Origin: Candidatus Bathyarchaeota archaeon | GTDB taxonomy: Archaea > Thermoproteota > Bathyarchaeia > Bathyarchaeales > Bathyarchaeaceae | DNA: 7,619 nt | NCBI GenBank assembly: GCA_003662715.1 | Contig: QMYO01000070.1 | Location: forward strand, 1-7,619 | Reading direction: 5' to 3' | In this document: piece after piece, positions 1,869 to 7,619 of the stretch | Layout: the number at the start of each line of letters is the position of its first letter | How positions within the stretch are numbered: position 1 is the first letter of the stretch | Made by a program: the position numbers and the translations under genes | Notes under the pieces: model-generated | Seen by the model: only the letters and a program-made list of their open reading frames with translations | Database searches by the model: none | What the model was told of the DNA's origin: nothing

Positions 1869-2645
1869 TTGTCACAAATCATCAAAGAAGGAGACAATGT
1901 TCTACTTTACCTAAACCGAAAGAGAACATACCTAGTTAAAGTGGAAAAGGAAAAAAGCTTCCACACCCACAAAGGATTCATTCAACTAAGCGAGTTGATT
2001 GGCAAAGAATATGGAACTCGAACAACAAGCAGCATGGGAATCGAATTCGTGGCGCTCAAACCCACCCTGCGAGACCACGTGTTCAAAACGTTAAGAAAAA
2101 CACAGATAACCTATCCAAAAGACATAGCGTTAATTATTATGTTCAGCGGAGCTGGACCCGGCAGCCGAGTGGTGGAGGCGGGAACTGGAACTGGAGCACT
2201 CACTACTGCACTTGCCTTTTACGTTAAGCCGACAGGACATGTGTACAGTTATGAGGTTCGAAAAGAGTTCATTAAGACAGCGCTTAAAAATCTAGAGAGG
2301 GCTGGAGTGTCTGAATATGTGGATGTAAAAAACAAGGATGTCACAGAAGGCATTGATGAAAAGGAGATAGACGCTGTGGTTTTGGACCTAGCAACTCCGT
2401 GGCTTGTTGTGCCACACGCTTACTCAGCGCTGAAGGGAAGCGGAAGCCTAGTGAGTTTCAGCCCCACGATTGACCAGGTTGTGAAAACGGTTGAGGCTAT
2501 GAAGGAAAACGGATTCGTAGATATTCAGACTGTGGAATGTCTCATGCGGAGAATGCAAACTGAAAGAGGGAAAACCCGACCTGAAACTTTAATGACTGGG
2601 CACACTGGTTACATTACTTTTGCGCGCAAAGCCCTTAAACAATGA
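1869..2645 (+). CDS. trmI: tRNA (adenine-N1)-methyltransferase, TrmI family
   Basis: A 258-residue class I SAM-dependent methyltransferase. In archaea TrmI makes m1A at position 58 of the tRNA T-loop, and in some species also at 57, acting as a tetramer. Residues 1-65 form the small N-terminal beta domain (IIKEGDNVLLYL...). The catalytic domain shows motif I VVEAGTGTGA (101-110), motif II YEVR (128-131), the DLATPW motif (173-178; DLPxPW in many relatives), and the closing RPE...TGHTGYITFARK (about 237-254) typical of the family. The length is normal. The start is a TTG at 1869: an in-frame TAA lies some 45 bases upstream and no ATG or GTG lies between, and the protein from this TTG matches the usual N-terminus. 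Purine-rich GAGGAAA upstream is only a weak ribosome site. The gene is alone on its strand, ends with TGA and is followed by a T-rich terminator. Confidence 0.93.
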   Translation: MSQIIKEGDNVLLYLNRKRTYLVKVEKEKSFHTHKGFIQLSELIGKEYGTRTTSSMGIEFVALKPTLRDHVFKTLRKTQITYPKDIALIIMFSGAGPGSRVVEAGTGTGALTTALAFYVKPTGHVYSYEVRKEFIKTALKNLERAGVSEYVDVKNKDVTEGIDEKEIDAVVLDLATPWLVVPHAYSALKGSGSLVSFSPTIDQVVKTVEAMKENGFVDIQTVECLMRRMQTERGKTRPETLMTGHTGYITFARKALKQ

Positions 2646-4127: not shown

Positions 4128-5714
4128 ATGAACAAAACAGCGTGCAGAGAAATCATCCAACACCTAATGACAATTTCAAACCTAACCAAAGAAGACACAA
4201 ATCTAATCAAACTGCAAGTCGCCAGCAAATACAAACTGAAAAAAGTTCCCCCCAACTCTGAGCTAATACGCTATCTTAAACCAAACGAAAAAACCAAACT
4301 TCTCCCAATCCTTCGCAGAAAAGCTGTGCGCACAATCTCTGGAGTAACAATAGTCGCTGTAATGACCAAACCTTGGCCCTGTCCCCAACAGACTCCATGC
4401 GCCTATTGCCCCGGCGGACCGCCCTATGGGGTTCCTCAGAGCTATACTGGGCATGAGCCAGCAGCCATGAGAGGGATACAGAACAGGTTTAACCCATATA
4501 GGCAGGTGAAAAGGCGTGTTGAGCAATTAAAAGCAATTGGGCACACCGTGGATAAGGTGGAACTTGTAGTGATGGGTGGAACATTTCTAGGTATGCCTCT
4601 GAACTATCAAAAACGCTTCATTCAACGATGTTTAGATGCCATTACAAATAGGAAGTCCAGTTCGTTGGAGGAAGCCAAGAAAAACGCGGAGGCTAGTCGA
4701 ATCCGCAACGTCGGCATCACTGTGGAGACGCGTCCGGACTGGGCTAAAGAAGAACACGTTAATCACATGTTATCTATGGGCGTAACCCGCGTGGAGCTGG
4801 GCGTACAAAACATATACGACGATGTTTATGAGCTGGTTGGTCGAGGACACAGCGTTCAGGATGTGGTTGAGGCTACTCGCATACTGAAGGACGCTGGATT
4901 GAAAGTAGCTTACCATCTTATGCCTGGATTGCCTGGCTCAAACTTTAAACGTGATTTAGAGGCGTTCCACCGGATTTTTACGGATTCCAGTTTTAAGCCA
5001 GACATGATTAAGATTTATCCCTGTCTTGTTCTTAAGGGAACCAAAGCTTACGAGTGGTGGAAACGAGGAGAATATCAACCATACACTACTGAAGAGGCGG
5101 CTAAGCTTATTCTTGAAGTGAAGAAGATGATTCCTCGCTGGGTTCGAATCATGCGGGTTCAAAGGGACATTCCAGCTTATCTTATAGAGGCTGGAGTGAA
5201 CAGAGGTAATCTTCGGCAGATTGTTTTAAGGAAGCTTAGAGAACAGAAACTGAGATGTCATTGTATTCGATGTCGGGAAGTTGGGCATCGGTGGTTAAAA
5301 GACAAGGTGAAGCCTAATCTAGATAATGTTCAAGTGTTAGTTAAAAAAGAGAAAGCATCGGATGGAGAAGACGTTTTCATTTCAGCCGAAGACCCAACTA
5401 ATGATGTTTTGATAGGTTATCTTAGGCTGCGTATTCCATCCGATAGGGCGCATAGACCCGAAATTCCCTTTGAAACAGCTTCGATAATACGTGAGCTTCA
5501 TGTTTATGGTCCATTGGTTCCTGTTGGAAGACACATGGTGAGGGCATGGCAACATAAAGGCTATGGCGAGATTCTTTTGTCTACGGCTGAACGAATATCT
5601 AAGGAAGATTATGGTAGGAGAAAAGTTGTAGTTACAAGTGCGCTTGGAACAAAACCGTATTACAAACGGTTTGGTTACGATTATGATGGACCATACGTTT
5701 CTAAAACTGTGTGA
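4128..5714 (+). CDS. elp3: Elp3 family tRNA uridine(34) acetyltransferase-like radical SAM enzyme
   Basis: A 528-residue Elp3. The enzyme uses a radical SAM domain and an acetyl-CoA domain to start cm5U-type modification of the wobble uridine (U34) in tRNA; in archaea it works without the other Elongator subunits. The N-terminal region (1-80) has the usual basic tRNA-binding stretch and KLKKVPPNSEL. The 4Fe-4S cysteines are C85, C91 and C94 in PCPQQTPCAYCPGG, followed by QSYTGHEPAAMR (104-115). Further family motifs are VVMGGTF (147-153), TVETRPDW (198-205), RVELGVQ (221-227) and HLMPGLPGS (263-271). C377, C379 and C382 (CHCIRC) are the expected metal-binding cysteines between the domains. 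The C-terminal GNAT domain has the acetyl-CoA loop HKGYGE (476-481) and ends GTKPYYKRFGYDYDGPYVSK. It is complete, ends with TGA, and converges on the CBS gene with 31 bases between them and no clear terminator. Confidence 0.97.
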   Translation: MNKTACREIIQHLMTISNLTKEDTNLIKLQVASKYKLKKVPPNSELIRYLKPNEKTKLLPILRRKAVRTISGVTIVAVMTKPWPCPQQTPCAYCPGGPPYGVPQSYTGHEPAAMRGIQNRFNPYRQVKRRVEQLKAIGHTVDKVELVVMGGTFLGMPLNYQKRFIQRCLDAITNRKSSSLEEAKKNAEASRIRNVGITVETRPDWAKEEHVNHMLSMGVTRVELGVQNIYDDVYELVGRGHSVQDVVEATRILKDAGLKVAYHLMPGLPGSNFKRDLEAFHRIFTDSSFKPDMIKIYPCLVLKGTKAYEWWKRGEYQPYTTEEAAKLILEVKKMIPRWVRIMRVQRDIPAYLIEAGVNRGNLRQIVLRKLREQKLRCHCIRCREVGHRWLKDKVKPNLDNVQVLVKKEKASDGEDVFISAEDPTNDVLIGYLRLRIPSDRAHRPEIPFETASIIRELHVYGPLVPVGRHMVRAWQHKGYGEILLSTAERISKEDYGRRKVVVTSALGTKPYYKRFGYDYDGPYVSKTV

Positions 5715-6349: not shown

Positions 6350-7576
6350 TTGAGCAGTGAGTTCCCAGGATATAAAGGCAAAGCATTACAAGTTCTGAGG
6401 AAGGCTGGCGCCGAAATCGGCGACATGATACGAATCATTAAAGATACAGAAACTTACGAAGGCATACTCATCCCCCGGTCTGGATATGGTGATGAAAAAC
6501 ATGTTGTAATAAAGATGAAAAGCGGCTACAACGTTGGAGTTCACCTAACTCCAAATACGCGGATTGAAAAAATCGGAGTAGGAGCCAAACCTACCTTCAC
6601 GTCACCCCCATTACCGAAACAAAAACCCGGTTTACCCAAAGTAACCATCATAAGCACTGGAGGCACCATCGCCAGCCGAGTGGACTATCGCACGGGCGGG
6701 GTGCGTTCAGCTCTCTCCGCAAGCGACCTCTATAGTGTTGTTCCAGAACTTTCACAAATTGCGGCGATAGACGCCCAGATTTTGTTCAGTCTTTACAGCG
6801 AAAACATCACCGCAAAACATTGGGCGGAGACGGCTGAAACCGTTGCAAAACACATTCAAAAGGGCGTAGCAGGAGTGGTGATTGCTCATGGAACCGACAC
6901 CATGGCATACACCGCCGCAGCACTAAGCTTTGCGTTGCAAAATCTACCCGTACCCGTGATACTGGTGGGTTCTCAGCGGTCGGCGGACCGCCCTAGCTCT
7001 GACGCTGCAACCAACCTGATAGGAGCGGTTAGAGCGGCTGCGTGGGCTCCGTTCGCTGAGGTGGTGCTCGCTATGCACCAAACAGTGTCAGACAAAGCCA
7101 TAGTGTTCCATCGGGGAACCAAAGTTAGGAAATGTCATACAAGCCGACGGGACGCCTTCCAATCAATAAACACTTCACCGCTTGCCAAAATAGAAAATGA
7201 AGAAATCACCATGATGTTGGAGGATTACTGTCAACGCGACCTTTCACGAAGGCTGGTTTTGAAACCGAACTTTGATGAAAAAGTGGCGCTTGTAAAATTT
7301 TATACTGGTTTAAACCCAGACGTCATCGATTGGTATGTTGATAAGGGTTATAGAGGGATAATCTTTGAAGGAACTGGGCTGGGCCACGTCAGTAGCTATT
7401 GTTTCTCAGCGATTCGAAAAGCCATTAAAAAGGGTTTGGTTGTCGCCATGACTTCCCAATGCATTTGGGGACGCTTGAACATGAGCGTTTATGACGCGGG
7501 TAGAGACCTCCTAGCGATGGGAGTGTTTCCGCTTGAAGATATGCTACCTGAAACCGCTTTGGTGAAGTTGATGTAG
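6350..7576 (+). CDS. gatD: Glutamyl-tRNA(Gln) amidotransferase subunit D, up to an in-frame TAG
   Basis: GatD is the asparaginase-like subunit of archaeal GatDE; it frees ammonia from an amide donor so that GatE can turn Glu-tRNA(Gln) into Gln-tRNA(Gln). Numbered from the TTG at 6350 (408 residues to the TAG), residues 1-78 form the N-terminal GatD-specific beta domain (YKGKALQVLRKAGAEIGD, TYEGILIPR, SGYNVGVHL). The type-II asparaginase-like core has TGGTIA with T106, HGTDTMAYTA with T182 and D183, and K261 in VRKCHTSRRDAF, matching the catalytic Thr-Thr-Asp-Lys set. Also present are GSQRSADRPSSDAATNL and FEGTGLGHVS. The start was chosen on GGAGAG spacing and because known GatD proteins begin just before YKGKA; the frame is open back to an ATG at 6281 (23 residues more). 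The frame stops at TAG (7574-7576) just after ETALVKLM, where relatives continue with W.LG.T, so the C-terminus appears cut short by about 30 residues or the TAG is read through. Confidence 0.93.
   Translation: MSSEFPGYKGKALQVLRKAGAEIGDMIRIIKDTETYEGILIPRSGYGDEKHVVIKMKSGYNVGVHLTPNTRIEKIGVGAKPTFTSPPLPKQKPGLPKVTIISTGGTIASRVDYRTGGVRSALSASDLYSVVPELSQIAAIDAQILFSLYSENITAKHWAETAETVAKHIQKGVAGVVIAHGTDTMAYTAAALSFALQNLPVPVILVGSQRSADRPSSDAATNLIGAVRAAAWAPFAEVVLAMHQTVSDKAIVFHRGTKVRKCHTSRRDAFQSINTSPLAKIENEEITMMLEDYCQRDLSRRLVLKPNFDEKVALVKFYTGLNPDVIDWYVDKGYRGIIFEGTGLGHVSSYCFSAIRKAIKKGLVVAMTSQCIWGRLNMSVYDAGRDLLAMGVFPLEDMLPETALVKLM
7574..7576 (+). other. gatD: In-frame TAG at a conserved Trp position of gatD
   Basis: The frame reads ALVKLM, TAG, GLGQT. 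GatD proteins that I recall from other archaea carry KLM-W-x-LG at this point, so TAG stands where TGG (Trp) is usual, one base apart. It could be a sense codon (pyrrolysine or suppressor tRNA), a real nonsense mutation, or a sequence error. None of the six other complete genes here ends with TAG. Confidence 0.7.
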
Positions 7577-7619
7577 GGTTTGGGGCAAACAAAGAAGGTT
7601 GAAGAGGCAAATACTCTTC
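7577..7619 (+). CDS. gatD: Probable GatD C-terminal continuation after the TAG, cut by the window edge
   Basis: In the gatD frame the 14 codons after the TAG read GLGQTKKVEEANTL. This resembles the W.LG.T....EV...M segment that follows the asparaginase core in archaeal GatD and precedes its last, GE-containing residues. The resemblance is from memory of the family and the stretch is short, so it needs an alignment. The other reading, the start of the next gene (gatE) at a TTG at 7580, has no ribosome site and no GatE-like sequence. Confidence 0.6.

Follow-up and report, generated by a model that had tools for sequence, protein, structure and literature searches.

A TAG codon at an invariant tryptophan site of gatD at the end of a Bathyarchaeota sequence

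GatD, as part of the GatDE amidotransferase, is expected to be essential for Gln-tRNA in archaea, and archaeal codes in which TAG is a sense codon throughout the genome exist. Recoding may also be local: the available text of PMC9723677 describes localised pyrrolysine recoding in Sifarchaeia, where 21% of CDSs end in UAG, and pyrrolysine in Bathyarchaeota is already published, as the available parts of PMC9723677 and PMC9499178 indicate. At the level of titles and abstract openings, the literature gave no description of a TAG in gatD. We analysed a stretch of 7,619 nucleotides (the window), which its closest relatives in homology searches place in Bathyarchaeota. Its gatD is the same as other archaeal GatD genes in its three Pfam domains and its equivalog scores, and has an Elp3 homologue upstream, an arrangement also found at the bin28 locus L001, but differs in having TAG for an invariant Trp and, past it, three residues that occur in none of the best 120 homologues. 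Bin28 (G001, a MAG, CP070759.1), the nearest genome compared, resembles the Sifarchaeia, as the available text of PMC9723677 presents them, in its pyl genes, TAG-bearing mttB genes and 27% of TAG stops; the window differs from that pattern in that its TAG interrupts gatD rather than a methylamine methyltransferase gene, and the pyl genes are those of its relative bin28. What the window has in common with archaea that use TAG as sense genome-wide is a conserved gene with TAG in its frame, whereas bin28, the nearest pyrrolysine-bearing relative, differs from them in using TAG as an ordinary stop.

All three GatD domains (GatD_N, Asparaginase and Asparaginase_C) were matched by Pfam on the read-through product, and the NCBIfam GatD equivalogs scored 532 and 521 bits on 6353-7573, well over cut-off. 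The gene probably starts at the TTG at 6350 (residue 29 of P0001), since its orthologue in bin28 likewise starts with TTG; many of the GatD matches begin at or near this residue and a few somewhat further upstream. The frame does not run uninterrupted to the C-terminus: it reads ETALVKLM, then TAG, then GLGQTKKVEEANTL, and is open to 7619. Coordinates are given in Table 1.

Table 1. Features of the window and of bin28 that bear on the gatD TAG
Feature	Location	Strand	Basis
tRNA methyltransferase gene (GCD14/TrmI-like), uninterrupted	1869..2645	+	Pfam; 86% to bin28 over 1-258
Elp3-like radical SAM/acetyltransferase gene, uninterrupted	4128..5714	+	Pfam; 79% to bin28 over 1-528
gatD, Glu-tRNA(Gln) amidotransferase subunit D, likely TTG start to codon before TAG	6350..7573	+	Pfam, NCBIfam, bin28 comparison
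In-frame TAG at invariant Trp codon of gatD	7574-7576	+	homologue alignment, TGG in relatives
14 GatD-like codons past TAG, to sequence end	7577..7619	+	alignment; G438, K444 and N449 (P0001 numbering) absent from best 120 homologues
bin28 pylT-like tRNA, PylSn/PylSc, PylB, and separate PylC	L089:13267-15611 and G001:C1:689087-690112		profile and structure scans
bin28 mttB copies with TAG	G001:C1:492486-493919, 670585-671265, 1163065-1163574		

The interrupted codon is otherwise invariant. Its column holds Trp in 120/120 homologues (the best 120 of 8000 scored), and the codon is TGG in 57/57 gatD loci covering the site, from 61 fetched from genome contigs, 4 of which stop short of it. Both solved GatD chains, 1zq1 and 2d6f, have Trp here as well, and the residues that follow are conserved as far as these chains. 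All six of the nearest GatD proteins (P0002-P0006 and P0022; 91-92% identity) have Trp, and bin28, whose GatD is 84% identical to that of the window, keeps TGG. The sequence past the TAG is GatD-like; therefore, the continuation of the frame is not due to chance. These results bear out the preliminary description in its identification of gatD, in the Trp it expected at the TAG and in the GatD-like continuation; its position and numbering of the TAG are also correct. When the whole class was searched, GatD turned up in 226 of 256 genomes, and among the matches listed the only inside stops were in G003 (TGA), G004 (TGA) and G158 (TAA), with no in-frame TAG. As far as seen, the gatD TAG would thus be private to the window sequence, with a second case possible, as GatD proteins cut at the same codon are hard to spot among the best 120 of 8000.

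The tail past the TAG carries unusual residues. Eight of 423 GatD positions (31, 317, 411, 421, 437, which is the TAG, 438, 444 and 449) hold something found in none of the best 120 homologues, and four of the eight, the TAG site counted, fall in the last 15 positions. With the TAG excluded, three of seven private residues lie within 14 of 422 positions (P of about 0.004, a statistic that rests on few events). As a control, the same count on the 120 homologues themselves gave 288 private residues, of which 15 fall at 438-451, and none of these proteins contributes more than 2. In the tail, the commonest residues V, D and K are replaced by G, K and N, respectively; near the TAG, a compensating indel pair (one base in, one T out) fits the letters about as well as two substitutions. 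Plain mismatches with P0002 are not clearly higher in the tail than in the rest of the C-terminal third (4/35 at 414-448 and 2/3 at 449-451, as against 5-6/35 in each of the preceding three stretches), and residue-neutral differences from bin28 in the tail look ordinary by eye in the alignment. The tail is still GatD-like, yet private residues cluster in it. This clustering suggests errors, or selection that has slackened, over the final 43 bases, and tends to speak against a tail that the cell translates and requires. The preliminary description had offered pyrrolysine, a suppressor or a mutation or error as explanations side by side; the residues shift the balance to error or lost constraint.

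The reading that we favour, at little better than even chances, is that the TAG is an error at the sequence end and that the gene is an ordinary archaeal gatD. Several base calls in the last bases would be wrong or would come from poorly supported reads, and one wrong call would turn TGG into TAG. In the cell, gatD would read Trp at this site and continue for about 33 residues, and the amidotransferase partner gene would probably come next, as in bin28. Position 7619 appears to be a contig end, because the length of the window is uneven and frames run off both its ends; we infer both this and that the changes are errors and not real. Provided that the contig stops at 7619, any given base has about a 1.2% chance of lying within 46 bases of either end (92/7619, an after-the-fact calculation). 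An error at the sequence end would explain the TAG, its odd neighbours and its place. Against it, if the nearest proteins represent the original, the tail and the TAG would together require five or more altered bases out of 46, a high number for short-read assembly. The changes in the tail also keep the frame, a tail freed of selection by a real nonsense mutation would look identical, and neither the mismatches with P0002 nor the residue-neutral differences from bin28 clearly stand out there.

Elsewhere in the window, the genes that can be compared with bin28 are uninterrupted. On the window side, neither stops nor frameshifts break the alignments of w1 (residues 11-354), the tRNA methyltransferase gene and the Elp3-like gene, and the same holds for w4, which aligns at lower identity. 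No match in bin28 was found for w2 and w5, and only a distant one for the CBS-domain gene. As the comparable genes are uninterrupted, visible trouble is confined to the window end. The six other complete window ORFs taken as genes do end in TAA or TGA (TGA, TGA, TAA, TAA, TGA and TAA), as was initially noted, but their stops are a poor sign that TAG is rare or reassigned, since none in six has a probability of about 0.15 given the 27% TAG of bin28.

A recent, real nonsense mutation, TGG to TAG, in a natural strain, by which GatD would be truncated inside its C-terminal domain, lose about its last 34 residues and be left partly active or dead, is possible but distinctly less probable. An unread tail would gather changes, and the clustered odd residues past the TAG fit such relaxed selection. 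The cut product still scores 521-532 bits and is without only the last 30-33 GatD model positions, and TAG is an ordinary stop in bin28. Against this, GatD is expected to be needed, and bin28 has a single GatD match; conservation of the Trp and of the residues that follow extends to the solved chains; and a mutation at the extreme sequence end would be an odd coincidence. A nonsense mutation would explain the TAG and its odd neighbours, though not its place.

Decoding of the TAG as pyrrolysine, in an organism that would carry tRNA-Pyl and PylRS as bin28 does, with Pyl-tRNA competing with release factor so that some full-length GatD is made with Pyl for Trp, is unlikely. The idea was a reasonable one to raise, because pyrrolysine genes exist in the nearest relative. 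In bin28, a pylT-like stretch at L089:13267-13335, a tRNA cloverleaf with a CUA anticodon, lies just before pylSn, pylSc and pylB; the call rests on our own structure scan, the fold and the position before pylSn, and the stretch was reported by neither Rfam nor ARAGORN. PylS is split, with PylSn at 97.5 bits (cut-off 51.15) and PylSc at 276 (cut-off 178.15), and PylB (407.2 bits, cut-off 348.2) lies with it on the last assembly piece. PylC is found elsewhere in the genome (323 bits, cut-off 248.3). No PylD reached the cut-off of 150.05 in the bin28 assembly (highest score 19.1 bits), whose pieces are linked by 152 runs of 100 N; this is a point against pyrrolysine.

Three bin28 mttB copies carry an in-frame TAG at one common site, reading ...AGC-TAG-ADAKIVD..., and together with the pyl genes they favour the pyrrolysine alternative. 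Two further mttB copies of the same type (193707 and 691069, G001:C1) end at assembly gaps just ahead of the TAG site, and repetition of this gene may be why the assembly is fragmented. Another bin28 gene of the mttB family (G001:C1:518503-519939, minus strand) has, by eye, an in-frame TGA where its paralogue at 682458-683894 has Cys; possible explanations are a selenocysteine codon or a mutation, and the available text of PMC9499178 mentions selenocysteine for Bathyarchaeota. In the second-nearest genome, G002, an mttB-like fragment (L165:341-955) has a TAG followed by homologous sequence and adjoins another mttB copy; it looks like a decaying duplicate. We rejected its TAG (L165:626-628) as evidence, since by eye it occupies a Gln-/Glu-like position, unlike the bin28 site.

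The distribution of PylS gives a mixed picture. Of 256 genomes in the class, only three have it over cut-off, namely bin28, G210 and G216 (L198 and L199), and it was not found at that level in the 0.8 Mb covered of G002; this patchiness weighs against pyrrolysine in the window. On the other side, the protein collection holds at least 36 PylS clusters at least 80% identical to that of bin28, one of them over just 70% of the query, and PylS-bearing relatives are therefore not rare in the data.

The preliminary description also mentioned that some archaeal lineages may read most TAG codons as pyrrolysine. Such a reading fails in bin28, where 346 of 1289 picked ORFs of at least 150 aa (27%) end in TAG. 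Extensions past TAG have a median of 12 codons, with 26/346 over 100; they resemble those past TAA (median 14, 36/504 over 100) and are somewhat longer than those past TGA (median 10, 20/439). TAG is as frequent as a stop in G008, a genome without PylS over cut-off (181/680 picked genes of at least 120 aa, versus 373/1401 in bin28). A blastp comparison of bin28 with the 680 genes picked in the initial 800 kb of G008, which covers only genes common to both sets and missed the mttB copies, found homology past a stop for 6 of 10953 candidates. Four of these were TAA, one TGA and one TAG, so that the genome-wide continuation past TAGs for which a check had been proposed does not appear; in the reverse scan of G008 stops, 4 of 5146 candidates were found, 3 TAA and 1 TAG. 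An earlier tblastn scan, which we rejected as evidence because it admits antisense gene shadows and which the blastp scan supersedes, was likewise without a TAG excess in bin28: among the matches listed, 399 of 3303 candidates were spanning, with TGA at 177/1255, TAG at 112/917 and TAA at 110/1131. We therefore rejected a genome-wide pyrrolysine code in bin28, where TAG is an ordinary stop and continued homology is not commoner past it than past the other two stops. Pyrrolysine decoding in bin28 looks local.

In favour of pyrrolysine, the available text of a review (PMC9499178) indicates that its insertion is probably decided by competition at UAG, with no required signal. The ordinary use of TAG as a stop in bin28 tells against pyrrolysine in gatD, as does the absence of conservation of the TAG, the site being TGG in every relative covered. 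Pyl in place of an invariant Trp would be drastic, for no evident catalytic reason, and a tail that is read should lack clustered odd residues. Read-through as pyrrolysine would explain how such a mutation could be borne, and bin28 shows that the machinery exists close by, but not why odd residues cluster. It is more doubtful still that in a Bathyarchaeota lineage tRNA-Pyl would serve as a natural amber suppressor, letting the essential gatD tolerate UAG at the invariant Trp. A dedicated TAG suppressor tRNA, such as a tRNA-Trp or tRNA-Gln whose anticodon has mutated to CUA, would restore sense reading and retain Trp or a neutral residue, but is very improbable: ARAGORN found no tRNA in the window and, with introns allowed, no CTA anticodon in bin28, where a strict-geometry scan, which can miss tRNAs, matched only the pylT-like gene.

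If the TAG is an error or a strain-level nonsense mutation, which we think likelier, it serves as a caution: an in-frame stop close to where a metagenome sequence ends needs read support before recoding is proposed, even near lineages that encode pyrrolysine. If it is real and read through, an essential gene for Gln-tRNA synthesis would depend on pyrrolysine decoding. Such a case would bear on the passage of UAG from stop to sense, as a stage between local recoding and a broader pyrrolysine code.
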